DNA of 24,697 bases from Clostridia bacterium BRH_c25 (GTDB lineage: Bacteria > Bacillota_A > Clostridia > Lutisporales > Lutisporaceae): the NCBI GenBank assembly GCA_001515955.1, contig LOES01000032.1, positions 1 to 24,697 of the forward strand, given 5' to 3'. The notes beneath the pieces were generated by a model. The model searched no databases. It was not told the origin of the DNA and saw nothing but the letters and a program-made list of their open reading frames with translations. This document shows positions 1 to 16,393 of this stretch, piece by piece. Both the position numbers and the translations under genes were made by a program. Position 1 is the first letter of the stretch, and each line of letters opens with the position of its first letter.

Positions 1-1749
1 CTCTTTATATATGCCCGTGATGTAAGGATTATCATGGGATTTTCTAAGGGTTTTCCCTTCATCCTCTGCATATATTGCCGCTATTCTCTTTTTCCTTACT
101 TCATCGTTAGTCATTCTTGGCTGTCCTCCGCCGCTTATGCAGCCACCGGGACAGCCCATTACTTCAATGAAGTGGTACGGGCTTTCCCCCTTGTGGATTT
201 CGTCCATTAATATCGAAGCGCCCTTAAGTCCGCTTGTAGTGGCAACTTTTACAGTAATGCCATTTAAGAATCCCCACTCTGCCTTAGCATCCAGAATTGT
301 AAATTCAGCAGTTTTTATTCTTTCCAGCCCTTGAATCGGTGCAACATGAAGCTTGTCAAAGGGCAATCCTCTTCCTGTTATAATTTCATACACTGTTCTG
401 AGAGCTGCTTCCATAACACCGCCGGGTGCACCAAAGATATCTGCTGCTCCTGTGGAAAGTCCTAAAGGATTATCTGTTTCGCCTTCCGGAAGAGTAGTAA
501 AATCGATTCCGGCATCCTTGATCATTTTTGCCAGTTCCCTGGTGGTTATAACTGCATCCACATTTGGCGCCCCGTTATTTACCATTTCCGGCCGTGTAAT
601 CTCATATTTCTTCGCAGTGCACGGCATTACAGAAACAACAAACATATTTTTCGGGGCAACATTGATTTTATCTGCAAAATAGCTTTTGCATAAAGCACCA
701 AGCATCATATGTGGAGATTTACATGATGATAAATGTCCGAGTTCTCCAGGGAAGTAATGCTCAATATACTTTATCCATCCGGGGCTGCAGCTGGTTATCA
801 TCGGTAATACGGGAGGACTGCCCGCCGGCTTGAATCCTGTTTTTTCAAGCTGTTCATCACTGATAACCTTATTGGAATGCAGGAATTTTACAAGTCTTCC
901 GAGAAGCTCCGTTCCTTCTTCCATAATTGTTAAGTCCGCTGCAAAATTGGTGTCGAAAACAAAGTCAAAATCCATTTCTTTCAAAGCACTGACCATCTTG
1001 CCGGTAACAATGGTTCCAGGTTCATAACCGAACTCTTCGCCTAAGGCAACTCGAATTGCTGGCGCTGTTTGTATGATCACCGTTTTATGCGGATCCGCCA
1101 AGGCTTCCCATACAGCTTTTGTTGAGTCCTTTTCTTTTAATGCACCTACGGGACATACCGTCGTACATTGGCCACAGTAAGTACATGATGCAGACCCTAA
1201 AGGCAATTCAGGTCCCGGGCTTATTTCTGTTGCAAACCCTCTGAACTGTGAATTCAAAATGCCTACTCCCTGAACTTCGTTGCATGTTGTAACACATCTT
1301 CTGCATAAGATACATTTTGAATTGTCTCTTACAATGGAAGGAGAAGATGTGTCAACAATGTTCTTTGAGCTTTCCCCCTCGAACCGCGATTCCTCTATCT
1401 GTATTAATTCTCCAAGCTTTTGGAACTCGCAATCCTGGTTGCGAGAACACTGCAAGCATTCCTTCGGATGGTCCGAAAGCATTAGTTCATAAAGTACCTT
1501 CCTTGCCTTTCTTACTCTTTCTGAATTTGTATGAATAACCATACCTTCACTTACAGGTGTTATACAGGAGGCTTGAAGATTCTTAGCCCCATCCACCTCA
1601 ACAACACAAATCCTGCATGAACCGAATTTGTGAACACCCTCAAGATAGCACAAGCTCGGTATCAGAATACTGTTTTGCTTTGCAGCCTCAAGAATAGTCG
1701 TTCCTTCTTCCACATTTATCTTTTTATTGTTTATCGTAAGATTAATCAT
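1..1749 (-). CDS. hndD: [FeFe]-hydrogenase catalytic subunit HndD/HydA, 3' end cut by window
   Basis: Catalytic subunit of a cytoplasmic multimeric [FeFe]-hydrogenase that evolves or oxidises H2. The frame is open for 583 residues and runs off the window; it ends in the family's C-terminal RKSHDNP region, so probably only some 20-30 residues are missing. Domains in order: plant-type [2Fe-2S] (C34, C45, C48, C62), His-ligated [4Fe-4S] (H94, C98, C101, C107), two-cluster ferredoxin (C146/149/152/156 and C189/192/195/199), then the H-cluster domain with L1 TSCSPGW (C321), L2 VMPCTAKKYE (C377) and L3 VMGCPGGCISGGGQ (C533, C537). L1 has Ser where monomeric clostridial enzymes have a second Cys; I believe this is normal in HndD-type subunits. 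ATG start at 1749 follows GGGGGTG, 14 nt after the previous gene. Third gene of the hnd operon. The function is clear; the electron partners are inferred from neighbours. Confidence 0.95.
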   Translation of the reverse strand, partial: MINLTINNKKINVEEGTTILEAAKQNSILIPSLCYLEGVHKFGSCRICVVEVDGAKNLQASCITPVSEGMVIHTNSERVRKARKVLYELMLSDHPKECLQCSRNQDCEFQKLGELIQIEESRFEGESSKNIVDTSSPSIVRDNSKCILCRRCVTTCNEVQGVGILNSQFRGFATEISPGPELPLGSASCTYCGQCTTVCPVGALKEKDSTKAVWEALADPHKTVIIQTAPAIRVALGEEFGYEPGTIVTGKMVSALKEMDFDFVFDTNFAADLTIMEEGTELLGRLVKFLHSNKVISDEQLEKTGFKPAGSPPVLPMITSCSPGWIKYIEHYFPGELGHLSSCKSPHMMLGALCKSYFADKINVAPKNMFVVSVMPCTAKKYEITRPEMVNNGAPNVDAVITTRELAKMIKDAGIDFTTLPEGETDNPLGLSTGAADIFGAPGGVMEAALRTVYEIITGRGLPFDKLHVAPIQGLERIKTAEFTILDAKAEWGFLNGITVKVATTSGLKGASILMDEIHKGESPYHFIEVMGCPGGCISGGGQPRMTNDEVRKKRIAAIYAEDEGKTLRKSHDNPYITGIYKE

Positions 1750-1763
1750 TGTTTCACCCCCTT

Positions 1764-4700
1764 CTATTGCCTTCTGTCACATCTTAAACATCTCATGGCT
1801 TCTGCTATAGCATTTAAGCGGTGGAAGCCCTGTGATACTTCATCAAAACTATGCTTTCTTGAATCCATGTCAATATAATTCATTTCAAACCGCTCATGCT
1901 CAACCAATTCGGAATCATCAACCGTATCCGGGATTTCAATGGGTTCACCCCTATTCAGTTTTCCATCTCCGCCAAGATACTTGTCAATAGAGCCTGCAGC
2001 CTTTTTCCCATCTGCAATAGCCCTGATTACTACGTCTGATCCTCTTACAACATCCCCGCCTGCAAACACACCGGGCATTGAAGTCATGAGAGACTCCTCC
2101 TCAACTACAAAGGTACCCATTTTTGTTACTTCAACCTCATCTTTTCTTATAAAGGGCAGATCTGAGTACTGACTTACTGCAGGAATTACATAGTCTACAT
2201 CAAAGACAAATTCCGACCCTTCAATTCTGCGTGGCTTTTTCCTCCCATCCGAGTCAAAGCTGGACAGCTCCATTCTTACGCATTTAACTTGATTTACCCT
2301 TTCTGTTCCGATAAATTCAATCGGCTCAACAAGCTCATGAACAATTACACCTTCCTCTATTGCATCGACTATTTCTCTCTTGTCGGCAGGCATATCCTCC
2401 ATGTTCCTTCTATACAGGACGTGAACCTCATCAACTCCCATTCTGATTGCAACTCTTGCAGCATCTATTGCCGTATTTCCGCCTCCTATTACCGCTACTA
2501 CACCTTTTAGCTCCACTTCTCTGCCAAGATTAACATCTCTAAGGAAATCCAAGCCATGATAGACTCCTTTTAATTTTTCACCCTCGACCCCGACTTTCCT
2601 GGAGAACTGAGTCCCTGTTGCGACGTATATTGCATTATGCTTTGCTTTTATTTCATCAAATGTAATATCTTTTCCTATTTCTGTGTTGGTCAAAACTTCA
2701 ATGCCAATCTGCTTTATTGTATCTATTTCTTTCTTGAGAATTTCTTTAGGCAATCTATATTCGGGGATTCCGAAAACCAAGACTCCCCCTGCAACGGGCT
2801 GTGATTCATAAACCGTTACATCATAGCCTTGTCTTCCCAGATAATATGCACAGGTTAAACCCGATGGACCTGCTCCGACTATTCCTACTGATTTAAATTT
2901 CTTGGGAAATACAAGGTCAGTGAAGGGTTCATTATGCTTCATCATTTCATCCGCAGCATATCTTTTCAAATCTGCAATTGCCAAAGGATCATCCAGCTGT
3001 CCTCTTCTGCATTTGCTTTCGCATGGATGGGTGCACACCCTTCCGCATACAGAGGGGAATGGATTTTCCTGTCTTATGAGGTTATATGCATCCTTCACTC
3101 TCCCAGCAGCAATAAGAGCAACATAGCCGGGTACATTCACATTTGCGGGACAAGCATTTTCACAGGGAGAAATAAACAATTCCGAGCACACACCCGCCCT
3201 GCAGTACTTCTTTCTGATATGCTCATCATATTCATCCCTGAAATACTTTATCGTACTAAGCACAGGATTTGGTGCTGTCTGACCCAAACCACAAAGGGCA
3301 GTATCCTTAACAGTTTGTGCTATTTCTTCAAGAAGCTCTACATCACCTTCCTGCCCTTTCCCGGTAGTAATTCTTTCGAGGATTTCATGCATCCTTTTAG
3401 TGCCCAATCTGCAAGCAGCGCATTTGCCGCAGGATTCCTCCTGTACAAATTCCATAAAATACCTTGCCACATCTACCATACATGTATCTTCATCCATGCA
3501 TATAAGACCGCCGGATCCCATTATAGCGCCCAGCTCAACCAGTGAATCATAGTCTATCGGTGTGTTCAGATGGGCTTTTGTCAAGCAGCCTCCGGAAGGT
3601 CCTCCGGTCTGTGCAACCTTAAACTTTTTACCTTTTGGTATTCCGCCGCCGATGCCGAAGATTATTTCTCCAAGGGTAAGCCCCATAGGAACCTCAATGA
3701 GTCCCGTATTATTTATATCTCCTGCCAATGCAAAGACTTTTGTCCCTTTGCTTTTCTCAGTTCCCAATTCAGCGAACCAACTTGAACCTTTTAGAATTAT
3801 GACCGCAACATTTCCTAAGGTTTCAACATTGTTTATGACAGTAGGCTTCCCAAATAAACCTGACACTGAAGGGAATGGCGGCTTTTGTCTGGGCTCTCCG
3901 CGTTTACCTTCCACCGAGTCCATGAGTGCTGTCTCTTCTCCACACACAAAGGCACCTGCACCAATTCTTATTTCTATATCAAAATCAAATTGGCTTCCAA
4001 AAATATTTTTGCCTAATATGTTTCTTTCTCTCGCTTCATTGATGGCATACTCCAAACCCTCTATTGCCAGCGGGTACTCAGCCCTTATATAAACATATCC
4101 TTTATTCGCTCCTATTGCATACCCTGCAAGAGCCATACCTTCAAGCACCAGATGAGGATTACCCTCCAAAAGGCTTCTATCCATGAAAGCACCCGGATCA
4201 CCTTCATCTGCATTACATATGACATATTTCTGATCACTTTTTGATTTTGCTGCAAGCAGCCATTTCAAACCTGTAGGAAATCCACCGCCGCCTCTACCCC
4301 TCAGTCCAGATTTTTTTACCTCATCTATGACTTGTTCGGGACTATATTCATTAAGAGCCTTTGCAAGGGCATAGTATCCATCATTGGATATATATTCATC
4401 CATAGACCTGTAATTAATCATGCCGCAGTCTCTTAATACTATTTTGCTTTGTCCTTTGAAAAAATCGATATCCTTCATATATGGAGCCTTTTGGCCGGTA
4501 ATTCTATTGGTATAACAGCACTCTTCCACAATCTGATTTCCCAAAAGATGCTTTTTAACTATTTTTTTCATATCCTCTGGTTTTAGCTTACAATAAAAGA
4601 CGCCCTCAGGCAGTACCGTCATTCTTGGGCCAACATCACAAATGCCTATACAACCTGTAAGACTCAGCTTTACTGATGACGTAAGGCCGGCAGCTTCCAG

Positions 4701-4856
4701 TTCTTTAATGAGAGCATCCCTTACTTCACCACAGCCCGAAGAAACACATCCGGTGCCGGAGCAAAAAAGTAAAGTATGCTGATATCGCGCCATCTCCTCA
4801 GAAAAATTCTTTTTGGCCAGATCAAGATCATTAACATTGCATATTTTCTCGCTCAT
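1764..4856 (-). CDS. hndC: HndC/NuoF-like hydrogenase flavoprotein fused to a GltD/NfnB-like NADPH module
   Basis: A 1030-residue flavoprotein subunit passing electrons between pyridine nucleotide and the hydrogenase. Residues 22-115 are a thioredoxin-like [2Fe-2S] domain (C32, C37, C69, C73), equivalent to HndB. Residues about 135-545 are NuoF-like, with the glycine-rich FMN/NADH motif GLRGRGGGGFPTG (184-196), ICNADEGDPGAF (213-224) and a [4Fe-4S] site C476, C479, C482, C522. HndC/HydB proteins normally end in a two-cluster ferredoxin domain. Here residues about 550-1030 are instead a GltD-like unit: Cys-rich helical domain (C557, C565, C569, C604, C608, C612, C616), FAD motif GAGPSG (661-666), second dinucleotide motif GGGN (791-794), the NADPH-type YRRNMEDMPA (815-824), GGD near 933-935 and a terminal CLRC (1023-1026). 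ATG 3 nt after hndA implies translational coupling. Residues are read directly; NADPH use is inferred from GltD/NfnB homology. Confidence 0.93.
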   Translation of the reverse strand: MSEKICNVNDLDLAKKNFSEEMARYQHTLLFCSGTGCVSSGCGEVRDALIKELEAAGLTSSVKLSLTGCIGICDVGPRMTVLPEGVFYCKLKPEDMKKIVKKHLLGNQIVEECCYTNRITGQKAPYMKDIDFFKGQSKIVLRDCGMINYRSMDEYISNDGYYALAKALNEYSPEQVIDEVKKSGLRGRGGGGFPTGLKWLLAAKSKSDQKYVICNADEGDPGAFMDRSLLEGNPHLVLEGMALAGYAIGANKGYVYIRAEYPLAIEGLEYAINEARERNILGKNIFGSQFDFDIEIRIGAGAFVCGEETALMDSVEGKRGEPRQKPPFPSVSGLFGKPTVINNVETLGNVAVIILKGSSWFAELGTEKSKGTKVFALAGDINNTGLIEVPMGLTLGEIIFGIGGGIPKGKKFKVAQTGGPSGGCLTKAHLNTPIDYDSLVELGAIMGSGGLICMDEDTCMVDVARYFMEFVQEESCGKCAACRLGTKRMHEILERITTGKGQEGDVELLEEIAQTVKDTALCGLGQTAPNPVLSTIKYFRDEYDEHIRKKYCRAGVCSELFISPCENACPANVNVPGYVALIAAGRVKDAYNLIRQENPFPSVCGRVCTHPCESKCRRGQLDDPLAIADLKRYAADEMMKHNEPFTDLVFPKKFKSVGIVGAGPSGLTCAYYLGRQGYDVTVYESQPVAGGVLVFGIPEYRLPKEILKKEIDTIKQIGIEVLTNTEIGKDITFDEIKAKHNAIYVATGTQFSRKVGVEGEKLKGVYHGLDFLRDVNLGREVELKGVVAVIGGGNTAIDAARVAIRMGVDEVHVLYRRNMEDMPADKREIVDAIEEGVIVHELVEPIEFIGTERVNQVKCVRMELSSFDSDGRKKPRRIEGSEFVFDVDYVIPAVSQYSDLPFIRKDEVEVTKMGTFVVEEESLMTSMPGVFAGGDVVRGSDVVIRAIADGKKAAGSIDKYLGGDGKLNRGEPIEIPDTVDDSELVEHERFEMNYIDMDSRKHSFDEVSQGFHRLNAIAEAMRCLRCDRRQ

Positions 4857-4859
4857 GCC

Positions 4860-5372
4860 TTATTCACCCCCCTTATGATACTTATCCAATATTTGCTGCA
4901 CTTTGTTGGCATTCACTCTTTGATAAACTTTGCCATTAATGCTTATTACAGGTGCCAAGCCGCATGCGCCTAAGCACCGCATAACTTCAAGGGTAAATTT
5001 TAAATCCTTGGTCGTTTCACCTACATCGATACCCAAATGCTCTTTCAGCTTTTCCAGTATCTTTTTTCCACCTCTGACATAGCATGCAGTCCCCAAACAA
5101 ACTCTTACGGTATATTCACCTTTCGGTTTTGTTGAGAAAAATGAATAAAAGGTAACAACTCCACTAACCTTGGAAACAGGCAAATCCATTTTTTCGGCTA
5201 TGAAGCTTTGAACTTCATGGGGCAGAAAACCAAAGATAGCCTGAGACATATGAAGAATCTGAATTAGATTACTTTCCTTTTTTTCATACTCTTCAATAAC
5301 GTCATTTACCAGTGAATATTTCTCCTCCTCACTTAATTCTTTACACTCACATTTTTGAATAACCTGTGACAT
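4860..5372 (-). CDS. hndA: HndA/NuoE-like [2Fe-2S] hydrogenase subunit
   Basis: Small electron-transfer subunit of the hydrogenase, 170 residues, normal for the NuoE/HndA family. An N-terminal helical part (about 15-80) contains LPHEVQSFIAEKM and SGVVTFYSFF, typical of NuoE. The thioredoxin-fold [2Fe-2S] domain has C92, C97, C133 and C137 in the patterns CLGTAC and RCLGACGLAP. It is the first gene of the operon: the stop is 3 nt before hndC::gltD, and the start has a strong GGGAGGTG ribosome binding site. A -24/-12 promoter lies 43-60 bases upstream of the ATG, so the whole operon is probably sigma-54 dependent. Confidence 0.95.
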   Translation of the reverse strand: MSQVIQKCECKELSEEEKYSLVNDVIEEYEKKESNLIQILHMSQAIFGFLPHEVQSFIAEKMDLPVSKVSGVVTFYSFFSTKPKGEYTVRVCLGTACYVRGGKKILEKLKEHLGIDVGETTKDLKFTLEVMRCLGACGLAPVISINGKVYQRVNANKVQQILDKYHKGGE

Positions 5373-5414: not shown

Positions 5415-5432
5415 TTGCAAGACTCATGCCAC
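5415..5432 (-). promoter_or_regulatory. sigma-54 (-24/-12) promoter for the hnd operon
   Basis: Read on the minus strand this is GTGGCATGAGTCTTGCAA. It matches the sigma-54 consensus TGGCAY-N5-TTGCW, with GG (5430-5429) separated from GC (5418-5417) by exactly 10 bases. Taking C5417 as -12 puts +1 near 5405 and gives a leader of about 33 nt to the hndA ATG at 5372. The gene on the other side of the intergenic region is a sigma-54 activator, which strongly supports the call. Confidence 0.85.
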
Positions 5433-5475: not shown

Positions 5476-5509
5476 TTTAACATTAATGCAGTGGCGCATT
5501 AATGTTAAA
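5476..5509. promoter_or_regulatory. Palindromic enhancer (UAS) candidate 1
   Basis: Perfect 14-bp inverted arms TTTAACATTAATGC and GCATTAATGTTAAA are separated by AGTGGC. The centre is about 88 bp upstream of the predicted hnd start, a normal distance for an enhancer-binding-protein site. It contains AATGC-N6-GCATT, which recurs in the second palindrome at 5570-5610. No U-tract follows it on the minus strand, so it does not look like a terminator. Confidence 0.65.
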
Positions 5510-5569: not shown

Positions 5570-5610
5570 ATTAATAATGCAGCAGCGCATTATTAATGCG
5601 CTGCTGCATC
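5570..5610. promoter_or_regulatory. Double palindromic enhancer (UAS) candidate 2/3
   Basis: Two overlapping copies of the dyad seen at 5476-5509. The first is ATTAATAATGC-AGCAGC-GCATTATTAAT (5570-5597), containing perfect AATGC-N6-GCATT. The second is AATGC-GCTGCT-GCATC (5595-5610), with one base off. Their centres are 19 bp apart, about 179 and 198 bp upstream of the predicted hnd start. The same bases also form the terminator-like hairpin of the regulator gene. Confidence 0.55.
5577..5609 (-). terminator. Terminator of the sigma-54 activator gene
   Basis: A dyad with 16-base perfect arms (5577-5592 and 5594-5609) around a single T begins 25 bases past the activator stop. On the minus strand it is followed by TTAATATTTTTTGC, so the T-run lies a few bases after the stem. 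It is probably a Rho-independent terminator, although the dyad may serve mainly as a protein-binding site. Confidence 0.6.
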
Positions 5611-5634: not shown

Positions 5635-8250
5635 TCATAGCTGGTCTTGTAAATTCTTTAATTTCCTGACAATAGTAGATTGATTTACTCCTAATGCTTC
5701 CGCTATCTTATATGTATTGCCATAAGCTTTATACGCACGGCTGATTATCTGTTTTTCCACCTCAGAAACAGCTTCCTTGAGTGGTATGATGCTGTTAACT
5801 ATGATCTGTCCATTCTGGACCTTGAAAAGCTGATTGATATATGGTGGAATATCCCTGCGTGAGATTTCCGAATCCTTTGATGTTACAACCGTTCGCTCTA
5901 TTATATTTTGCAGTTCTCTGACATTGCCTGGCCAATAATAGCTGTATAATATGGATGGAACCTCAGGCGCAAACTCCTTGTTGCAGCCATATTGCTTATT
6001 AAAGACACCTAAAAAGTGATAAGCAAGGGGAATAATATCATCTTTTCTCTCTCTCAAAGGGGGGATATTGATTGAGACTACATTCAACCGGTAGTACAAA
6101 TCTTCCCTGAATTTTCCCTCATCAACCATTTTCTTCAGGTCATTATTCGTAGCGGCTATTATTCTGATATCTATAGCTTCACTTTTTGAAGACCCGATAC
6201 GCCGTACAGTTTTATCCTGTATGACCTGGAGCAGCTTCACTTGCAATGACAAGGGCAAATCCCCTATTTCATCAAGAAAGATGGTGCCATTATGAGATTG
6301 TTCAAAAAAGCCCGTTTTGCCCCCTTTTACAGCTCCGGTAAATGCCCCATATTCATATCCGAAAAACTCGGATTCCAATAATTTTTCCGGGATAGCTCCG
6401 CAGTTTACCTTAATATACGGTCCATCTTTTACAGGACTCAGATGGTGTATTAATCTGGCAATGACATCCTTCCCCACACCCGTTTCTCCAAGAAGAATAA
6501 CCGTGGATTTGTATTTTGCAGCTTGTTCAACCATCTCCAGCACTTTCCCGAATTCCTGGCTGTTCGTAATTATTCCCGGATAAGTGGATGTATCCTTTTT
6601 GCTCTTTTTTAAAACATTGCGTTTTAATCTGCTCAGCTCTTCGATGTCCCTGATATTTGTTACAACGCCAATAATTTCACCTTTTTCGTCATATATCGGG
6701 TTACCTGTTGCAATGAATTTTCTTTGATTTTTGCATTCCTGCAAAAAAGTAACTCTTCTTTTCTCCTTAAGAGCCAATATGGCTGCAGAAGGATAGATTA
6801 TGCCACTTCCCTCCAATTCCTCTACGGTTAACGGCATTTCATCAATCCCGATCATTTTCTTCCATGCAGAATTGGCTTTTATTATATTGCCGGCAGCATC
6901 ACATACGACCATGCCATCATAAGAGGATTCAAATATCGCATTTAACTCTTCATTCAGACTATTAACAGTATCAAAGGCTTCACTCAGCTTCAGATAACAA
7001 TCGCTCTTTTGAGAAAGCAGATAAGGTATGCACATTTCCACTTCAGCAATCCCTTGATGGACAGCGATGGCCTTTTCTCTGCATGTATTATATCCACAGG
7101 CTCCACAGTTCAACTCGTCTTCTTCACTATGCTTATCTATTCTGGCAAGTATTCTTGTTATACTGCCTTCATCAGGCTGGCTTAAAGGTATCATTTTGTC
7201 ATTAAAGGTTCTCATCATATCAATATCATAATGTTCAGCATACTGTATATCAGTTGATATATCAATTTTCCCATTGGCAAAATCCGTGATCATCTTTTGC
7301 CTTTCATGTATCAGTAAGTCGTTTTTCATGCAAGCACCGTCAATACAGCCTCTGCAGCCCAGTACATCATAGAACAGGAATTCCAATTCTCCTTTTCTAT
7401 TAGACCGCTCTATATGCTTAATAAGCTCAATACAATTATCCATACCATCACAAGAGATCAATTTATCCTCAGCAAACTTGCCTTTCAAATTTGTAATGAT
7501 GCCAGCTGAAAGAGGTATCCCCCTGCCTTTTTTTGAAGCGGCATAATATGGTATGGACTTTTCTCCTGATCGCTTGTTATCCTTTTCATCTATATCTTCA
7601 AACAACACACCCGCTTCTTCATATGTCAAAGCTGTATCAATACATCCTAAAAATTGCTCCTGCATTATTTCATCTTTCTTAGCAATGCATGGTCCTATAA
7701 AGACGATTCTGACATCTTCATTTTTATATTTTTGTCTGATTATCCGTCCTGTAACAATCATTGGGGAACCAATGGGAATCAGATTTGGAATCAGCTCCGG
7801 AAAATGCTTTTCAACTAAATTTACAAAAGTAGGGCATGGAGAACTGAGTAATATTTTATTGTTATTAGCCACAGCATATTCAGCAGAATGATCTATTACA
7901 TACTCTGCTCCGATAGCTGTTTCCCATACCTCTTCAAATCCAACGGCTCCCAGCTTCCCAATAATCTGTTCCGGGGTAAGGGGATAAAGCCCAGCCACAT
8001 ATGAAGGCGCAAGTAATGCTATGGACTTTTTGCCTGAATGTATTATTGATTCTGTAGCCGGGATAGAACTCAGGATTTTTTTTGCTTTGCGGGAACAATG
8101 CTTAACACAATTACCACATTGAATACATCTGGTCTGTATTATTTCTGCCTTGCCGTCTTTGATCCTCACCGCTTTTACAGGACAATTTCTCACACATGAG
8201 TAGCATTGCTTACACTTGGTGCTATCGGTAACAATAACAGCTTCAGTCAC
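5635..8250 (-). CDS. Sigma-54 enhancer-binding protein with [FeFe]-hydrogenase-like sensor and PAS domain
   Basis: A one-component transcription activator of 871 residues. Sensor: two-cluster ferredoxin (C13/16/19/23 and C42/45/48/52), then a hydrogenase-like domain (about 75-345) with degenerate H-cluster motifs: SSPCP (C139), IGPCIAKKDE (C188) and LGCRGCIDGAC (C299, C302, C307). A CGACGYNTC-type Fe-S motif (C382, C385, C390, C407) follows, then PAS at about 432-540. Output: sigma-54 AAA+ domain (about 557-790) with Walker A GETGVGKD (588-595), the sigma-54 contact loop GAFTGA (635-640), Walker B IFLDEIGDLP (657-666) and WPGNVREL; a Fis-type HTH at about 845-868. GTG start at 8250 with AAGGGG eight bases upstream. 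It is transcribed toward the hnd operon, whose -24/-12 promoter it probably activates. Fold and output are seen in the residues. The signal (H2, CO or redox state) and whether an H-cluster is inserted are inference. Confidence 0.93.
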   Translation of the reverse strand: MTEAVIVTDSTKCKQCYSCVRNCPVKAVRIKDGKAEIIQTRCIQCGNCVKHCSRKAKKILSSIPATESIIHSGKKSIALLAPSYVAGLYPLTPEQIIGKLGAVGFEEVWETAIGAEYVIDHSAEYAVANNNKILLSSPCPTFVNLVEKHFPELIPNLIPIGSPMIVTGRIIRQKYKNEDVRIVFIGPCIAKKDEIMQEQFLGCIDTALTYEEAGVLFEDIDEKDNKRSGEKSIPYYAASKKGRGIPLSAGIITNLKGKFAEDKLISCDGMDNCIELIKHIERSNRKGELEFLFYDVLGCRGCIDGACMKNDLLIHERQKMITDFANGKIDISTDIQYAEHYDIDMMRTFNDKMIPLSQPDEGSITRILARIDKHSEEDELNCGACGYNTCREKAIAVHQGIAEVEMCIPYLLSQKSDCYLKLSEAFDTVNSLNEELNAIFESSYDGMVVCDAAGNIIKANSAWKKMIGIDEMPLTVEELEGSGIIYPSAAILALKEKRRVTFLQECKNQRKFIATGNPIYDEKGEIIGVVTNIRDIEELSRLKRNVLKKSKKDTSTYPGIITNSQEFGKVLEMVEQAAKYKSTVILLGETGVGKDVIARLIHHLSPVKDGPYIKVNCGAIPEKLLESEFFGYEYGAFTGAVKGGKTGFFEQSHNGTIFLDEIGDLPLSLQVKLLQVIQDKTVRRIGSSKSEAIDIRIIAATNNDLKKMVDEGKFREDLYYRLNVVSINIPPLRERKDDIIPLAYHFLGVFNKQYGCNKEFAPEVPSILYSYYWPGNVRELQNIIERTVVTSKDSEISRRDIPPYINQLFKVQNGQIIVNSIIPLKEAVSEVEKQIISRAYKAYGNTYKIAEALGVNQSTIVRKLKNLQDQL

Positions 8251-8554
8251 ATTATCAACCCCTTAATTTCTTAATTATCAACCGTACAGCAGTTGAACTT
8301 TTCCCGGTAAAACAGACACTCCCGGGTTGGGTCTCCTCGCAATTACAAAAATGCCCTGTTATGTTAATAATAGCATGACAGAGCATTAAAATTCAATAAA
8401 TCACTTATTTTCTCCTATTATTGCAAATACAAATATTCCACTTGCCTTTATCTCCTCAACGTGTAACCTTCAAGCTCATACATGAATAAACTGTAATATC
8501 ATACTTTTATGAAGATGGTCGATTAAACAGGAAATTTTTTCTGGAGGTATTAGT
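8251..8554. other. Divergent intergenic region between activator and hydrolase
   Basis: No ORF of note. The minus-strand half contains a terminator-like hairpin (8350-8387) and, nearer the activator, a GC-rich stretch with CCCGG/CCGGG complementarity around 8312-8338 that could fold as a leader. I could not match this to a riboswitch class. The plus-strand half is AT-rich and ends in CTGGAGG, the hydrolase ribosome binding site; only weak promoter-like hexamers are visible there (around 8471-8502). Confidence 0.5.
8350..8387 (-). terminator. Terminator-like hairpin upstream of the activator gene
   Basis: Arms at 8350-8363 and 8374-8387 pair on the minus strand as AATGCTCTGTCATG with CATAACAGGGCATT, with one G-U pair and one C-A mismatch. 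T-residues follow directly (TTTTTG). It lies about 100 bases upstream of the activator GTG, with no minus-strand gene behind it. It would therefore have to act as an attenuator or insulate against antisense transcription. Confidence 0.45.
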
Positions 8555-9370
8555 ATGGCATACTATGTTAAAGCAGAGTCGGATGTAAAAATTTATGTAG
8601 AGGATCTTAACCCTGAGGGCAAGAAGACAATCCTATTTTTACACGGTTGGCCCGGAAGCCATAGATTGTTTGAATATCAGTTTAACCAGCTTCCAAAGCT
8701 GGGATATAGATGCATAGGAATAGATACAAGAGGGTTCGGCAATTCAGACAAGCCTTGGGGAGGCTACGATTACGACCGATTGGCAGATGATGTCCGATGT
8801 GTGGTTGAAGCACTGGAATTACAGGATTTCACCCTTTGTGGACATTCAACGGGGGGAGCGATAGCCATTAGATACATGGCCAGATACAATGGACATGGGG
8901 TATCAAAGCTTGCTCTTTTTGCCGCTGCCGCTCCCAGCCTTATACAGCGTCCATATTTTCCTTATGGCTTACCCAAAGCGGCTGTAGATGAAATCATTAA
9001 AGGAACATATAATGACCGGCCTAAAATGTTGAAGGAGTTTGGAGACATGTTTTTCTTCCAGCATATAACCGAGCCGTTCTCAGATTGGTTCTTCCAACTG
9101 GGACTGGAGGCGTCGGGTTGGGCTACTGCGTCAGTTGCAGCCACTTGGCTAGGTGAGGAAAGCTTATTTCATGATCTTGGGAAAATAAGTGTTCCTACTT
9201 TGATTCTTCACGGTATTCATGACAAGGTCTGTCTCTTCCCCTTGGCTGAAGCACAAAGAGAAGGCATTAAGAATTCCAGACTTATACCTTTTAAGTACAG
9301 CGGCCATGGCTTGTTCTATGACCAGCGCGATAAATTCAACAAGGAATTGACACAATTTGTTGAGGAATAA
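8555..9370 (+). CDS. Alpha/beta-fold hydrolase
   Basis: Soluble 271-residue hydrolase of the esterase/haloperoxidase type. The oxyanion region HGWPGS (30-35), nucleophile elbow GHSTGG (Ser98), acid Asp223 in HGIHDKV and His251 in SGHGLF make a complete catalytic triad. There is a normal cap region at about 125-200 and no signal peptide. The start has a CTGGAGG ribosome binding site. It is a single gene facing away from the hydrogen module and converging on the MFS gene. Substrate cannot be predicted; an ester, lactone or drug is equally possible. Its position beside the rifampicin cassette may be accidental. Confidence 0.88.
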   Translation: MAYYVKAESDVKIYVEDLNPEGKKTILFLHGWPGSHRLFEYQFNQLPKLGYRCIGIDTRGFGNSDKPWGGYDYDRLADDVRCVVEALELQDFTLCGHSTGGAIAIRYMARYNGHGVSKLALFAAAAPSLIQRPYFPYGLPKAAVDEIIKGTYNDRPKMLKEFGDMFFFQHITEPFSDWFFQLGLEASGWATASVAATWLGEESLFHDLGKISVPTLILHGIHDKVCLFPLAEAQREGIKNSRLIPFKYSGHGLFYDQRDKFNKELTQFVEE

Positions 9371-9402
9371 TTTCATATGGCGACTTGGGGGTGGCCTTCA
9401 GA

Positions 9403-9443
9403 AACGGTCTTTGCTCCAGGCCTTAGATGCAAAAACAACCGTT
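9403..9443. terminator. Interrupted hairpin between convergent hydrolase and MFS genes
   Basis: AACGGT (9403-9408) and TTTGC (9410-9414) pair with GCAAA and ACCGTT (9438-9443), with a 14-base loop and a short internal loop. On the plus strand TAATATTTT follows. It probably acts as a weak shared terminator. Its arms resemble those of the hairpin at 14041-14073. Confidence 0.4.
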
Positions 9444-9452
9444 CCTAATATT

Positions 9453-10721
9453 TTAAAGGTCGTGAGTTCTTAGTAGTGAGGTTAAAAACAGAATAGAAAT
9501 CGACATTATTATTATAGTAACCGCCAGTATAGTCCAATGGGTCTCAACCCTGCTGAGGATAATTCCATACAGCAGCGCACCAAAGGGCATGCCTCCCTTG
9601 GTAATCATTCCAACGATTGAAAACATACGGGACATATATTCGTTGGGTGTTGCCTTCTGGATAAAGGTCTGCACCGGAACGTTGATGAACATGATAGCGA
9701 CGCTTAACAGGCAGAGAGCTCCTGCCAGCAGGGCGAAGTATAATACCGCACCTTTTCCCGGTACGGGTAAGCTGCGGGGAAACAGCAAAACTGAAAACGC
9801 CAGCATTGTACCCATGAGCAGTCCACAGCCAATCACAAGGGATTTGGTCACCTCCTTCTCTTTACCGAACAGCAGACCCACCAGAATGCTTCCCAGCAGC
9901 GCTCCCAATATCATCACCATTTGCAGATAACCATACTGTGTATCGGAGTATACCAACCGGGTTCTGAAAAACAAAGGCAATACCACTGTAAAAACAGGCT
10001 GGATCAAAGCATATATTAACAGAAAAAAAACACACAGCTTACGGATTACTTTATTAAACAGAATGAATCTGATACCCTCGGACAAATCCGTTACTAATCC
10101 TTTCACACCGGCCGACAGCTCCCGCTTGACATGCTTATATCTGATCAGCAGCTCGCTGCTTCCCGACAGCAAAAATGAGATACCGTTGATGAGGAACAGA
10201 ACCGTAATGCCCCGTTTTGCATACAGGACAGCACCTATGACAGGACTCAGCATACCGGCCAATGTTCTAAGTGCCGCAACGGTGGAGTTGGCCCGGGTCA
10301 GTTCATCCTGAGCTACCAACTGGGGCAGCATTCCTTTCGTAGCCGGATCAAACAAACCATTCAGCAAAGATACTATTACCTGCACCGACAGCAGCAAAGT
10401 CAGGCTCATTCTGCCTGAATACGAACCAAAGGCCAGACCCAATATTACCAAGCCGCTGGCAAAGTCGGTCGTCACCATGATCATCTTCCGGTTCAACCTG
10501 TCTCCAAGCACTCCGGCAAAGGGGTAGACCAGGAGAGCCGGTGCCAGGGACAGGAAGGAAAACAGCCCAACGGTAGCTGCCGAGCCGCCTGCATCGATGA
10601 TATAAAGCGGTATGATCACCATTTGGATGCCCGTTCCCATATCGGATACCATCCTGCCAAGCAGGAGCAATATGAGATTTGTATTTACATCTCTCTTATA
10701 TCTTTTCACAGGACACCTCAT
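9453..10721 (-). CDS. MFS drug-efflux-type transporter
   Basis: Integral membrane protein of 422 residues with about 12 hydrophobic helices, of the MFS group that includes EntS-like and macrolide-type exporters. The helix 2-3 loop signature is seen as AGVLGDRLNRKMIM near residue 75. The ATG overlaps the rph stop in TAATG, so translation is coupled; a GTG at 10709 after GAGGTG is an alternative start. It is the last gene of the tetR-rph-MFS cassette. Base composition appears higher in G+C than the flanking genes: three 60-base lines I counted (9781, 9901, 10501) give 48, 45 and 62 percent. Export of rifamycins or another drug is inferred from context only. Confidence 0.85.
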   Translation of the reverse strand: MRCPVKRYKRDVNTNLILLLLGRMVSDMGTGIQMVIIPLYIIDAGGSAATVGLFSFLSLAPALLVYPFAGVLGDRLNRKMIMVTTDFASGLVILGLAFGSYSGRMSLTLLLSVQVIVSLLNGLFDPATKGMLPQLVAQDELTRANSTVAALRTLAGMLSPVIGAVLYAKRGITVLFLINGISFLLSGSSELLIRYKHVKRELSAGVKGLVTDLSEGIRFILFNKVIRKLCVFFLLIYALIQPVFTVVLPLFFRTRLVYSDTQYGYLQMVMILGALLGSILVGLLFGKEKEVTKSLVIGCGLLMGTMLAFSVLLFPRSLPVPGKGAVLYFALLAGALCLLSVAIMFINVPVQTFIQKATPNEYMSRMFSIVGMITKGGMPFGALLYGIILSRVETHWTILAVTIIIMSISILFLTSLLRTHDL

Positions 10722-13342
10722 TACAGTATTTCTACATACCCTTCTGTTCCGTTTATCCGTATCCTCTGTCCATCTTTGATCAGCTTGGTAGCGTTCTCCA
10801 CACTTACTACTGCAGGCAGACCGTATTCCCTTGCAACAACGGCACCATGGGTCATCATCCCGCCTACTTCCGTCACCAGCCCTTTTACAGACACAAACAC
10901 CGGTGTCCAGCTGGGATCAGTGAATGAGGTGACCAAGATATCGCCTTCCTCTATATTGGCATCCTCTATTCTTAAAACGACCCGTGCACGGCCTTCTATA
11001 GTACCTGATGAAACGGGTACGCCAGCCAAAGCACCTTTTGGGATGTTGCCGGTGTCATATTCACCGGATATAACCTCTCCCTCAGAGGTAATCACACGTG
11101 GGGGTGTCAACTTTTCAAAAACCTCATATTCCGCTTTTCTCTTTATTATTATATTATTATCCACCCTATTTGTATTAACTGCCTCCCTTAACTCCTCAAA
11201 GGTCAGATAATATATATCCTCCCTTTCCCCTATTATACCTTTTTGCACCATCTTGTCGGCTTCCCTCAGCAGAGCTTGCTTGATGATCCAGAGATACTGA
11301 ACAATGACATACTTGTTGTATTCCCTGAAGCCTGCAAAATTGCGCAAAACACTTATGGCCTTCCTTATCTTTTTGGCTTTGCTCTTTCCACCGGGCAGCA
11401 TCATAATACGGTCTATGATATCCTTTTCCTTCAGCTTCGCTTCCTTTAGCCCCTGCTCAAATTTCATACTATGTGCATTTGGCCCGAAGGTCTTTATATT
11501 ACTAAGGAGCATGGGTATGAGTATGGTTGGTTTTTCATTCCATCGCGTCCTTGTCAAATCAATTTCTGCGGAACAGCGCATACCATATTTCTTCAGATAT
11601 GCCTGGATTGAATCACTTACAGCTTTTCCACCTTCCACTTTGGTCATGCCCTCAAAAAAGGTCTTATCACTTGTATGCTCCAAATATTCAAGCACTGCCG
11701 GATACTTCCTGACGACATCCGCTACATCAAGAAGCTCAAGCCCCATTTCAGAGGTAACATTATTATCCACCGATTGTGCCAAGGCATCGGCTGCATTCTT
11801 TTCACCCAGCCATTTCTGAACGCTGTTATTTATCCGGTAAGAGGCGTAAGTTCCTGCGAATACCACTCCATAACCGGCAAAAACAGCATTCTTCATATCC
11901 TCAAAATCCTTCTGAATAAAATCAAACAGCTCATCCCCCGATAAATCAGCAATCCTTAGCTCCCGCGCATGCATCAGCTCCTCATGGTGGACGATAAGTT
12001 CTTTAACAGCAGTCGGATCGTTTTTACGATAGTTCTTTATGGTTCCGATCCCCCAGTTCAACCATACTGAGCCCCCAGGCATCGCTGTCTTTCCCCTATA
12101 CAGTCCATTGATAAAATCCTTCCGTTTCATCAAATTGTAAAGGGCCTTCTGCATCAGAACATCAACGGTGTCAAGACCTTTTAGAAAGGATTTTCTTATT
12201 AACGGTGAAGCAAGTTCATTGGATATATCCATATACAGCCTTCCACCCATTTCATCCATCAACGAGGGTGTTATCTTTTTGAAAAAAGCCTGGAAGAAGG
12301 TCATGCCCAATGGTTTCATGGCCTCTGTCATCATCTGCCGGTGCCCAAAGGATATATAAACACGGTTTTTTCCGTCCTTCACTGCAGGTGCGGGGTATAA
12401 AGTGGTAATAGGACGGCTCTGTACCACAAAAAATATATTTTCATAGAGGCACCATTCGATGTCCTGGGGGCAGCCAAAATAAGCCTCAATCTTTCTGCCT
12501 ATACTCTCGAGCTGCAAAATCTGCTCATCCGTCAACGTCTGTGTATTCTGCCGTCCGGCTTCAATGGCCTTTTCCTCTGTACCTCCTTTTTCCATTGCAT
12601 AGATCGCCAGTTTCTTGGTGGATATCTTTTTATCTACGATACTGCCCTCGCGTACCTTGTAGATATCAGCATTCACCAGGCCGGATACAAGCGCCTCGCC
12701 AAGCCCAAAGCTGGCATCAATGGATGCTACCTTTCTGTTGGCTGTGACGGGGTCTGCCGTAAACATAATCCCTGCAGCCTGCGGGAAAACCATCTTCTGT
12801 ATGACCACGGACAAATAGACCCTGCTGTGGTCGAATTCGTTTTGTATGCGGTAGATTACGGCACGGTCTGTAAACAGCGATGCCCAACACTTGCTTATAT
12901 GCTGCAGGATAGCAGCTTTTCCTATAATGTTTAAATACGTATCCTGTTGCCCGGCAAAAGAGGCCAGGGGCAGATCCTCAGCCGTGGCGCTGGAACGCAC
13001 GGCATAGGCATTTTTTTCACCAAGCTTTGAGAGATGGCAGGTGATCTCTTCATCTATGTCCTTTGGAATTGTTATCTCCTCGATGACCCTTCGAAGCTTT
13101 CCGCTGATTTCACCTATTCTTATCCTGTCTTCCACCTTAAGCTGAGATAATTGCTTCAGCAATGAGTTATACTCCCCGTTATGCCCAATTATACTTTTAT
13201 ATGCTTCAGTGGTAACACAAAAGCCTTCCGGTACCTGTATCCCATCAATCCTGAACAGTTCTCCCAGATTAGCACCTTTGCCCCCGACCACCATGAGCTT
13301 TGTTTTATCAATATCCTGAAAACCCAGTACATATGGATTCAT
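10721..13342 (-). CDS. rph: Rifampicin phosphotransferase
   Basis: Dikinase-type antibiotic-inactivating enzyme: ATP + rifampicin + water give phosphorylated rifampicin, AMP and phosphate. The 873 residues match the known Listeria-type Rph in length and layout. The N-terminal ATP-grasp domain has VGGKGANLGEL, YAVRSSATAEDLP, ASFAGQQDTYLN and DIEWCL..VVQSRP. The central domain, about 325-755, corresponds to the rifamycin-binding part and contains TSEMGLELLDVADV and YGMRC.EIDLTRTRW. The C-terminal phosphohistidine domain has TEVGGMMTHGAVVAREYG with catalytic His832. I chose ATG 13342 rather than the in-frame ATG ten codons earlier because a GGGGGGAGGG ribosome binding site lies just before it and the mature MNPYVL start fits the family. 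It lies 19 nt behind tetR and overlaps the transporter gene by one base. PEP synthase was considered and rejected. Confidence 0.93.
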   Translation of the reverse strand: MNPYVLGFQDIDKTKLMVVGGKGANLGELFRIDGIQVPEGFCVTTEAYKSIIGHNGEYNSLLKQLSQLKVEDRIRIGEISGKLRRVIEEITIPKDIDEEITCHLSKLGEKNAYAVRSSATAEDLPLASFAGQQDTYLNIIGKAAILQHISKCWASLFTDRAVIYRIQNEFDHSRVYLSVVIQKMVFPQAAGIMFTADPVTANRKVASIDASFGLGEALVSGLVNADIYKVREGSIVDKKISTKKLAIYAMEKGGTEEKAIEAGRQNTQTLTDEQILQLESIGRKIEAYFGCPQDIEWCLYENIFFVVQSRPITTLYPAPAVKDGKNRVYISFGHRQMMTEAMKPLGMTFFQAFFKKITPSLMDEMGGRLYMDISNELASPLIRKSFLKGLDTVDVLMQKALYNLMKRKDFINGLYRGKTAMPGGSVWLNWGIGTIKNYRKNDPTAVKELIVHHEELMHARELRIADLSGDELFDFIQKDFEDMKNAVFAGYGVVFAGTYASYRINNSVQKWLGEKNAADALAQSVDNNVTSEMGLELLDVADVVRKYPAVLEYLEHTSDKTFFEGMTKVEGGKAVSDSIQAYLKKYGMRCSAEIDLTRTRWNEKPTILIPMLLSNIKTFGPNAHSMKFEQGLKEAKLKEKDIIDRIMMLPGGKSKAKKIRKAISVLRNFAGFREYNKYVIVQYLWIIKQALLREADKMVQKGIIGEREDIYYLTFEELREAVNTNRVDNNIIIKRKAEYEVFEKLTPPRVITSEGEVISGEYDTGNIPKGALAGVPVSSGTIEGRARVVLRIEDANIEEGDILVTSFTDPSWTPVFVSVKGLVTEVGGMMTHGAVVAREYGLPAVVSVENATKLIKDGQRIRINGTEGYVEIL

Positions 13343-13361
13343 ACATATTCCCTCCCCCCTA

Positions 13362-13949
13362 TTATTTTGCAATTCCTTTCTTGATTATTTTGATAACATC
13401 ATTGAGCTTCTTTAAATACCTATCATCGTCCAGCCCGTTCCTGAAATACTCCTCTAAACCGAAAGTGAAAATCATATTTATAACAAGCTCGGAATCAGTT
13501 TCCGGCTTGATGAGGCCTCGCTCTTTATCACGCTCAATCATTTTCACATATTTTTCGATGGATGCTCTACGGATCTTTTTCATAAATTCGCTGTTATCCA
13601 TCTCCATTTGCATACCTATCTCTACATATTGCGGTTTTACTCTACTCAGTTCAAGGGATTCCTTGGTTCTTTGCACAATGATTTCAAAAACGTCCGCATC
13701 CGGATTCAGGACTTCAGTATTTCCGAGAATCTTCTGCTTTTCCTTTGAAATTTCTTCTAACATATAAATATAGATGTCCTCTTTATCGTTAAAATATTGG
13801 TAGAAGCTTCCCCAAGGTATTCCCGCCGCCTTAACAATCTGGTTGAGTGATGCATCACTGAAACGTTGAGCTGAAAACTCCTGCATAGCGGCGTTAAGTA
13901 TTCTCTTTTTTTTCTCATCATTTAAATTATAAAAAGTATCTTTTGGCAC
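13362..13949 (-). CDS. TetR/AcrR-family repressor
   Basis: DNA-binding repressor of 195 residues. The N-terminal HTH (about 15-60) reads KKKRILNAAMQEFS, then SLNQIVKAAGIPWGSFYQYF, then DKEDIY, typical of TetR. The C-terminal part is a helical ligand-binding and dimer domain with no specific signature. The GTG start at 13949 is preferred over the upstream ATG (13979) because AAAGGAGGTGG lies directly before it. It heads the tetR-rph-MFS operon and probably controls it. The 40-bp palindrome 38 bases upstream of the start is the likely operator. A rifamycin or other lipophilic ligand would be the expected inducer, by inference. Confidence 0.9.
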   Translation of the reverse strand: MPKDTFYNLNDEKKKRILNAAMQEFSAQRFSDASLNQIVKAAGIPWGSFYQYFNDKEDIYIYMLEEISKEKQKILGNTEVLNPDADVFEIIVQRTKESLELSRVKPQYVEIGMQMEMDNSEFMKKIRRASIEKYVKMIERDKERGLIKPETDSELVINMIFTFGLEEYFRNGLDDDRYLKKLNDVIKIIKKGIAK

Positions 13950-15155: not shown

Positions 15156-15196
15156 TTGTTAAAATATTATAAATAATGGCAATCAAGAGGGTTGTT

Positions 15197-16393
15197 ATGA
15201 AAAAGAAAAGGATTCTTGCAAGATACGGAGCCTCGTTGCTTATCATATTCTCCATGCTATGCAGTATAATAGCTGCTGAAGCTTACGCCTCACCCGATAC
15301 CCAGGCTCCTGCGGCTCCTAAGAGGCTGACTGCTGCCGACGCATCCCATACAGCTATTTCTTTGAATTGGGCGGAAGCATATGACAACACAAAAGTAAAA
15401 GGTTATCAAGTATACAGGGACGGCAAGAAAATAATATCAACTTCAAAAACAACTTATACAAACACCGGTCTGATTCCCGGAACGACATATGCATATGCGG
15501 TAAGAGCCTATGATGCTGCCGGAAATGTATCGGAGAGCAGCAATGTTATAAGTGCTGCAACGATTGGCGACCTGCAAAATCCTTCCACCCCGGAAGGCCT
15601 GACCGCAGCCTCGGTGACCTTCACTTCCGCATCACTCACTTGGAAGCCTTCAACAGACAACGTAGGCATTAAAGGCTATGAAATATACTGCAATGATAAA
15701 AAAGTCGCATCAACATCGTCCACAAGCTATGAGTATAAAAAGCTTACACCGGGTACTGCCTACACCTTTTCCATAAAAGCATATGATAAAGCAGGCAATT
15801 ACTCTTCACAGAGCAATCGCGTTTCCGTCAATACCGCGCCGGACAAAACGGCGCCATCTCCTCCGGATGGGCTTAAAGCCTCTTCTGTTTCGTTAACCGA
15901 AGTCAATCTCACATGGTCGCCCTCCTCCGATAATGTTAAAGTCAGAGGCTATGATATCATCCGTGACGGAATCAAAGTAGGCACATCAAGTAAAACAAGC
16001 TACTGCAGCAAGGGGCTGTTTCCCGGAAAAAGCTATACCTACACGGTGAGGGCCTCCGATATTTCAGGCAATCTATCCGGCAGCAGCAGCTCAATAAACG
16101 TTGCTACACTGAAAGATCAGCAGGCGCCAAAGGCTCCCTCCGGACTTAAGGTAACTGCCGTAAAAAATTCATCCGTATCTCTTACATGGACGGCATCCAC
16201 CGATAATGGAAAGGTTGCTGGGTATCAGATCTACTGCAACGGTCTAGTAATCAGCACTGCAGCCGGAATCTCACGTATAGTGGCAAATCCCTTTGGTCCG
16301 GGCAGTGTAGAGTTCTATATAAGAGCCTATGATCAGGCAGGCAACCTGTCGGACGGAAGCAATACTGTAACGGCTGTCACACCTTCAGATTAA
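15197..16393 (+). CDS. Secreted protein of four fibronectin type III repeats
   Basis: Extracellular protein of 398 residues. A basic N-terminus and hydrophobic core (7-28) end in AEAYA-S, giving a signal peptide cleaved after about residue 31. The rest is four FN3 repeats of about 90 residues (36-123, 126-213, 217-304, 308-396). Each has a W..S.DN...GY.IY core (A, K, S or T after the W) and an A.D.AGN.S type F-G segment. There is no catalytic domain, SLH, sortase motif or membrane anchor, so the whole mature chain is FN3. Such repeats usually serve as linkers in clostridial glycosidases; a free-standing set suggests a binding or spacer role. ATG 15197 is preferred over 15176 because AGAGGG lies just upstream and it leaves a better signal peptide. 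A promoter and terminator of its own are visible. Confidence 0.88.
   Translation: MKKKRILARYGASLLIIFSMLCSIIAAEAYASPDTQAPAAPKRLTAADASHTAISLNWAEAYDNTKVKGYQVYRDGKKIISTSKTTYTNTGLIPGTTYAYAVRAYDAAGNVSESSNVISAATIGDLQNPSTPEGLTAASVTFTSASLTWKPSTDNVGIKGYEIYCNDKKVASTSSTSYEYKKLTPGTAYTFSIKAYDKAGNYSSQSNRVSVNTAPDKTAPSPPDGLKASSVSLTEVNLTWSPSSDNVKVRGYDIIRDGIKVGTSSKTSYCSKGLFPGKSYTYTVRASDISGNLSGSSSSINVATLKDQQAPKAPSGLKVTAVKNSSVSLTWTASTDNGKVAGYQIYCNGLVISTAAGISRIVANPFGPGSVEFYIRAYDQAGNLSDGSNTVTAVTPSD

Follow-up and report, generated by a model that had tools for sequence, protein, structure and literature searches.

We analysed a stretch of 24,697 nucleotides from Clostridia bacterium BRH_c25 (contig LOES01000032.1, positions 1 to 24,697; this whole stretch is called the window below), at the beginning of which three closely spaced genes form an operon with the minus-strand order nuoE (hydC), a fusion of a HydB-type flavoprotein with a GltD-type module, and [FeFe] hydA (Table 1). 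Only 3 bases separate the end of nuoE from the start codon of the fusion gene, and 14 bases lie between the fusion gene and hydA, whose ATG is found at 1749. The fusion is read from one minus-strand frame, while the plus strand at the same positions is riddled with stops and non-coding.

Table 1. Features of the hydrogenase locus and of the region upstream of it (window coordinates)
Feature	Position	Strand	Basis or remark
[FeFe] hydrogenase HydA, group A6-type	1..1749	minus	583 aa, cut by window edge; carries the H-cluster and relay motifs
HydB::GltD fusion protein P0001	1764..4856	minus	1030 aa, open frame and homologues
C-terminal CLRC (C1023, C1026), completing second GltD cluster as in StnC	1779..1790	minus	alignments
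Rossmann domains for FAD and NADP(H) (GAGPSG 661, GGGNTA 791, YRR 815-817)	2007..2891	minus	Pfam and alignments
Fer4_20, GltD Fe-S ligands C565, C569, C608, C612, C616 and K631, from 8 residues past hinge	2931..3200	minus	Pfam and alignments
B2/Zn hinge H546-x5-C552-x4-C557 (with C459), last HydB-shared part	3186..3221	minus	alignments
NADH_4Fe-4S domain, B1 ligands C476, C479, C482, C522	3219..3473	minus	Pfam and alignment
SLBB domain with GGPSG signature (residues 418-422)	3588..3734	minus	Pfam and alignments
NuoF 51K FMN/NAD(H) domain, bifurcating-type A223/M225	3804..4319	minus	Pfam and alignments
Thioredoxin-like [2Fe-2S] domain, N-terminal, B5 site C32, C37, C69, C73	4551..4781	minus	Pfam; Cys invariant in 120 aligned rows
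NuoE/HydC-like [2Fe-2S] subunit	4860..5372	minus	170 aa; Pfam
TGGCAT-N5-TTGC, resembling a sigma-54 (-24/-12) promoter, ahead of nuoE	5417..5431	minus	pattern
Palindrome AATGC-N6-GCATT, candidate activator site	5485..5500	.	pattern
Second palindrome AATGC-N6-GCATT; alternatively terminator hairpin of the regulator gene	5576..5591	.	pattern
PrdR-like AAA+ activator for sigma-54; [FeFe]-hydrogenase-like, Fe-S and PAS domains at its N-terminus	5635..8250	minus	Pfam

Architecture of the fusion subunit and its hydrogenase

The initial annotation had described HydB and GltD as joined in a single frame within a hydrogenase operon, which is borne out by the 1030-residue frame, along which the Pfam domains follow in the order 2Fe-2S_thioredx (residues 26-102), Complex1_51K (180-351), SLBB (375-423), NADH_4Fe-4S (462-546), Fer4_20 (553-642) and Pyr_redox_2 (656-950). 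As judged by alignment, residues 1-557 correspond to a HydB of bifurcating type up to and including the B2/Zn hinge, and the best matches of residues 1-562 were the bifurcating HydB proteins of A. woodii (7q4v, 755.6 bits), A. mobile (7t2r) and T. kivui (8a6t). The hinge residues H546, C552, C557 and C459 correspond to H525, C531, C536 and C438 of A. mobile, a site assigned to the B2 cluster in one account (PMC9304861) and to Zn by another group (PMC9499530). The B1, B5 and B2/Zn (three Cys and one His) sites of BfuB are present in the fusion. T486 had been considered as a B2/Zn ligand and was dropped; the alignment puts the matching column at T497 (at least 90% of 63 rows).

Losey et al. (2020) mark bifurcating subunits by A/E, M and GGPSG (PMC7311640). 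A223, M225 and GGPSG at 418-422, together with the His and Cys residues of the hinge, are invariant in all 120 rows of an alignment of the window protein with 119 of the best 120 homologues (of 7997 scored), from which homologue P0070 (879 aa), a partial copy, was left out. None of four NuoF controls, tail-less proteins from relatives, has the A/M, GGPSG and hinge marks as a set; we call these controls non-bifurcating from the absence of the tail and not from an assay, and the Geothrix control carries Cys, His and Cys at three hinge columns. In the separate table that covers these controls and the tail-bearing subunits, the L019 row is short of its last two hinge Cys owing to a cut of the sequence at a fixed length. 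A further column, taken for the Phe of Losey et al. (F367 of TmHydB), was dropped as an unsafe mapping, with Phe in three of the four controls and Tyr in several tail-bearing subunits. In a tree of NuoF parts, 17 fusions formed a single clade within bifurcating HydB and apart from StnB, supported at 100 in the Shimodaira-Hasegawa-like approximate likelihood ratio test (SH-aLRT); this tree was built by a quick method from 42 rows, with the G002hyd row lost to a motif-search cut and the four control rows long-branched.

Besides the Fer4_20 of GltD, no ferredoxin domain (Fer4) was found by the Pfam search of the fusion, and the two-cluster B3/B4 tail is missing, while this tail is present in 18 HydB/StnB-type subunits examined from 12 fusion genomes. 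Its first Cys lies 12-13 residues past the hinge in 12 ordinary paralogues, and the first GltD ligand of the fusion follows 8 residues past it. Both the loss of the tail and the position of the GltD clusters in its place therefore agree with the initial annotation.

The C-terminal part is, by its domains, ligands and nucleotide motifs, a complete GltD-type module for flavin adenine dinucleotide (FAD) and NADPH (residues 559-1030) with ligands for two Fe-S clusters. Against the sequence after residue 562, the GltD modules of Nfn-Bfu and StnC (9n5u_A 414, 9bov_A 410 and 8oh5_C 350 bits) outscore those of NfnB (4ylf_B 323 and 5jca_L 310 bits). Two ligands of one cluster sit at the extreme C-terminus (CLRC, 1023-1026) and had been missed in the initial annotation; they are, as are C565, C569, C608, C612 and C616, invariant in the 120-row alignment. 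Following StnC and the arrangement in dihydropyrimidine dehydrogenase, the ligands would be split into C565/C616/C1023/C1026 for one cluster and C569/C608/C612/K631 for the other. A degenerate module was rejected, with ligands and nucleotide motifs kept down to 49% identity.

The GltD type shows in the non-Cys ligand of the FAD-proximal cluster. This is K170 in StnC, where NfnB has Glu (PMC10482914), and K631 of the fusion aligns with it. Lys was found at this position in 17 of 17 fusions, five of five StnC and three of three solo GltD proteins, and Glu in three of three NfnB; K631 is moreover kept in 120 of 120 aligned rows and in 14 of 14 divergent fusions. Where StnC has C114, the residue of the fusions is Val, Ile or Ala. 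In a GltD tree, NfnB splits from all others at an SH-aLRT of 100, and a branch supported at 99 unites the fusions with three solo GltD proteins, next to a StnC branch at 100; support for the fusion clade on its own is weak (39) in this quick tree of 28 rows. A structure and variants of StnC reportedly show this flavin to be non-bifurcating (PMC10482914). Since the module is StnC-like (Lys) and not NfnB-like (Glu), the FAD of the fusion is probably not the bifurcating flavin. The likeness to the flavin-bifurcating NfnB, on which the initial annotation had leaned, is thus unfitting, and a bifurcating flavin of NfnB type is disfavoured.

Solo GltD proteins on the same branch (P0228 with 694 aa, P0238 and P0240) have additional motifs of ferredoxin type behind the CLxC pair, and P0228, which is without the NuoF part, yet retains the HydB hinge H-x5-C-x4-C. 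An AlphaFold2 model made with close homologues only had a predicted template modelling score of 0.48 and a predicted local distance difference test value below 50 at the junction 555-567, and was not used.

The hydrogenase subunit passes the NCBIfam group A6 model NF040763 (820.1, cut-off 765). In 13 of 13 fusion-associated HydA proteins examined, the H-cluster motifs TSCSPGW, MPCTAK and C-x-GGC are present, together with the relay motifs of the N-terminal part: [2Fe-2S], His-type and CxxCxxCxxxC, the last of them twice. The HydA of the window carries TSCSP and SSCKSP motifs, the latter of which also occurs in an oxygen-tolerant clostridial [FeFe] hydrogenase. While its end lies outside the window, HydA of the related locus L002 (607 aa) stops where HydA of A. 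woodii stops. The HydA proteins beside five of 14 further fusions (L055, L060, L062, L063 and L066) are C-terminally extended to 664-672 aa.

Conservation and distribution

Among the best 120 homologues (of 7997 scored), 119 are full length with identical architecture and 68-91% identity. Of 391 genomes sampled in the class to which genome G002 belongs, 30 gave matches at E <= 1e-290, down to 51% identity; these 31 matches include two short ones (84-1029 and 21-1008) and one with an internal TAA. An error of assembly or sequencing, which had been named in the initial annotation as a finding that would undo the fusion, is excluded, because the homologues share the architecture and all hinge and cluster ligands.

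One contig scan returned 34 loci, 25 of which (L001-L025) hold the fusion, with three of these loci truncated at the start of the contig; the remainder comprises an ordinary tail-bearing HydB type (L026) and eight Geothrix/Holophagaceae loci that match the NuoF part only. Wherever the contig reaches, NuoE is encoded directly upstream (22 of 22 loci) and HydA downstream (24 of 24). The same order NuoE-fusion-HydA is found in 14 further loci, one of which repeats L011, and in another of which (L056) HydA runs off the contig. Among the named carriers are Sinanaerobacter chloroacetimidivorans, Dethiosulfatibacter aminovorans and metagenome-assembled genomes labelled Clostridiaceae, Oscillospiraceae and Peptococcaceae, and many database entries for the homologues bear the plain name NuoF.

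An additional HydB/StnB-like subunit was detected by similarity in 16 of 18 fusion genomes and not seen in G013 and G015; like the other counts on relatives, these refer largely to metagenome-assembled genomes of unstated completeness. In the 12 of these 16 genomes that were checked, the tail-bearing subunits have the bifurcating marks, and most of the stretches fetched from them hold NuoE-HydB-HydA or Stn gene sets. Single-frame StnB-StnC fusions, suspected from frame lengths, proved wrong, with a stop between the two in L047 and two frames in L044. Two loci stand out in other respects. L001, labelled Calditrichales, holds a close relative (88%) of the otherwise clostridial operon described here, pointing to a mislabelled bin or a transfer, and in L009 a second NuoE-NuoF-HydA set (5981-9446) adjoins the fusion operon, with a NuoF that has neither the tail nor the bifurcating marks.

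Proposed reaction and alternatives

With a probability of about one half, we propose that the fusion would supply the flavoprotein of a soluble [FeFe] hydrogenase of three subunits. In it, a bifurcating HydB would have exchanged its mobile domain for ferredoxin docking for a StnC-type NADP(H) module, and the net reaction would be 2 H2 + NAD+ + NADP+ <-> NADH + NADPH + 2 H+. In a published scheme for HydABC, electrons from H2 reach the flavin mononucleotide (FMN), from where one branch leads to NAD+ and the other via C1, B2, B3 and B4 to ferredoxin (PMC9304861). In the fusion enzyme, electrons from H2 would pass through HydA to the FMN, where NAD+ would be reduced in the first branch, while the second branch would run over the mobile NuoE cluster and the hinge to the GltD clusters, the FAD and finally NADP+, instead of B3/B4 and ferredoxin. 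The reaction would be reversible and ferredoxin would not be needed. Since B3/B4 are removed and an NADP(H)-capable module sits at the same point, replacement of ferredoxin by NADP(H) is the economical reading, in which NADH and NADPH would be coupled.

Assuming potentials of -280 mV for NADH, -375 mV for NADPH and -500 mV for ferredoxin, we calculate that H2 would be limited to 3.0 Pa with NADH alone, 121 Pa with NADH and NADPH together, 4.9 kPa with NADPH alone and 15.6 kPa with NADH and ferredoxin together, and the enzyme would consequently suit lower H2 than HydABC. With slightly less than even probability, it would be a ferredoxin-independent bifurcating hydrogenase, in which the HydABC core would be modular at the hinge, with NADP(H) as low-potential partner and tuning to about 100 Pa H2.

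Several points weigh against this proposal. How HydABC bifurcates is itself disputed: one group assigns Zn to the hinge (PMC9499530), the other a [2Fe-2S] cluster (PMC9304861), so that a working wire across the hinge is at most putative. NADPH alone (-375 mV) could moreover push H2 to about 4.9 kPa, so that coupling is not required, and the retained bifurcating marks may be inherited rather than functional.

The alternative that survives best, although we consider it unlikely, is an uncoupled NAD(P)-linked hydrogenase, in which both nucleotides would feed the relay in parallel, either alone would suffice and bifurcation would have been lost with the ferredoxin tail. Schut et al. indeed define bifurcating enzymes by B1-B5 (PMC9304861), including the tail clusters that are missing here, and NADPH alone is thermodynamically able to reach kPa pressures of H2. 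However, characterised uncoupled enzymes are reportedly without A/M and GGPSG (PMC7311640) and without the hinge His (PMC9304861), all of which are invariant in the fusions.

More doubtful is an enzyme joining NADH, NADPH, ferredoxin and H2, with ferredoxin docking on the distal GltD cluster as in Nfn, or on HydA. In NfnB, ferredoxin is described as being reduced via the two [4Fe-4S] clusters (PMC10482914), and the fusion retains the ligands for two clusters. Yet the proposed ferredoxin site of HydB and StnB, the B3/B4 domain, is the very part that has been replaced, which leaves the fourth partner of the initial annotation unsupported; the module is of StnC and not of NfnB type, and separate tail-bearing subunits are present in all 12 fusion genomes checked for tails.

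The grouping of the GltD module with StnC, which is reported to feed an FMN core without bifurcating (PMC10482914), would also fit an Stn-like input, with NADP(H) as mid-potential partner equilibrating with H2 at the FMN and the enzyme acting mainly as an H2-buffered NADH/NADPH transhydrogenase. We consider this improbable, as the input from StnC runs through a NuoG-like part into B1 (PMC10482914), whereas the module of the fusion hangs on the hinge, which is the low-potential side in the published scheme (PMC9304861), and HydA holds the place of the third substrate. Finally, a glutamate-synthase-linked hydrogenase, proposed for Vallitalea from the name GltD (PMC6163223) and suggested for group A2 of HydDB, which is itself listed as putative (PMC5037454), is very improbable, with the small-subunit models TIGR01316 (361.6 vs 471.75), TIGR01318 (309.6 vs 482.95) and TIGR01317 (235.3 vs 447.7) all below cut-off and a GltB-like domain in none of 17 scanned proteins of the window.

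The low-potential route to ferredoxin in HydABC is disputed, and in the proposed enzyme nature would have cut that branch at the hinge and added another acceptor, with the hinge and the FMN site intact. Coupling of the two nucleotides, or its absence, therefore bears directly on the hinge-side branch as the low-potential path. The proposed reaction would further give a direct link between H2 and NADPH for models of fermentation and syntrophy in Clostridia, for whose hydrogenases of this kind NADH plus ferredoxin is the common assignment.

Upstream region, neighbouring genes and known systems

The sigma-54 activator encoded upstream probably regulates the nuoE-fusion-hydA operon. Because its L1-like motif reads SSPCP, it is likely a sensor rather than a catalyst. 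The -24/-12-like site alone is not significant, with at least one such site in 19 of 100 shuffles; the pattern search places a similar site at the corresponding position of L002, and inspection by eye shows one each in L003 and in L001, where C stands for the first T. Only in L001-L003, the relatives with these similar sites, is the activator kept beside the operon, and in 18 other loci scanned the promoter pattern was not found within 400 bases upstream of nuoE, or up to the contig end. The two palindromes are the only ones of their pattern in the window, both lying between the activator gene and nuoE, and a count of two was reached in none of 100 shuffles. These features suggest an H2- or redox-responsive control of the operon in this small group.

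Elsewhere in the window, a phosphoenolpyruvate-synthase family protein (10721-13372, minus strand), with an MFS transporter and TetR genes as gene neighbours, passes the model for rifamycin-inactivating phosphotransferase (1271.7 vs cut-off 999). Fibronectin type III domains recur in a protein of 405 aa whose gene (15176-16390, plus strand) runs opposite to its neighbours. There was no Rfam match in the window at the gathering threshold, and a tRNA search of the window returned none.

Among the known systems compared is HydABC (Bfu Type 1; structures 7q4v of A. woodii, 8a6t of T. kivui and 7p5h of T. maritima), with which the operon shares HydA with the H-cluster, HydC, and HydB through the FMN, B1, B5 and the B2/Zn hinge, whereas the C-terminal 2[4Fe-4S] ferredoxin-docking domain has given way to the GltD/NADPH module. 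Counterparts of BfuC (NuoE-like) and BfuA are encoded beside the fusion. The published Bfu definition, however, requires a ferredoxin domain IPR017896 with B3/B4 in BfuB (PMC9304861), which the fusion lacks, and the Bfu survey that used it would omit these proteins.

Stn (StnABC, S. ovata 8oh5) and Nfn-Bfu (9bov, 9n5u) resemble the fusion in their bifurcating NuoEF core and in a GltD module of Lys type with a C-terminal CLxC pair. In Stn, however, GltD is joined to the NuoG-like subunit and StnB retains its ferredoxin tail (PMC7483475), while in the fusion GltD sits on NuoF, a NuoG-like part is absent and the third partner is a hydrogenase. With NfnAB (T. maritima 4ylf, P. furiosus 5jca) the GltD-type FAD/NADPH fold and two [4Fe-4S] clusters are shared, but NfnB differs by the Glu at the Lys position, an N-terminal CLxC pair, a bifurcating FAD and its partner NfnA, no counterpart of which was found among the 17 window proteins scanned, the window ending inside hydA.

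By its published description, the trimeric hydrogenase of Vallitalea guaymasensis L81 (peg.3894-3896), whose sequence was outside our comparison, has the same architecture, and the initial annotation had rightly stated that NuoF-GltD fusions are annotated in some Firmicutes. The 2018 account, the one report of this architecture that was found, describes its HydB with the two-[4Fe-4S] domain substituted by GltD and suggests a second NAD(P)H site (PMC6163223); in the portion of that paper drawn on here, it consists of domain annotation with a suggested glutamate link, without analysis of hinge, ligands, phylogeny or mechanism. In open-access full texts (subscription literature was not covered), no measured reaction was found for the HydB-GltD architecture. 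The A2 rule of HydDB asks for a protein directly downstream of HydA with GltD and without NuoF (PMC5037454), whereas here GltD is encoded upstream of hydA and fused to NuoF; the gene downstream of hydA lies outside the window. The fusion is a variant within the world of HydABC, Bfu and Stn and not a separate kind, conserved, complete and apparently uncharacterised.

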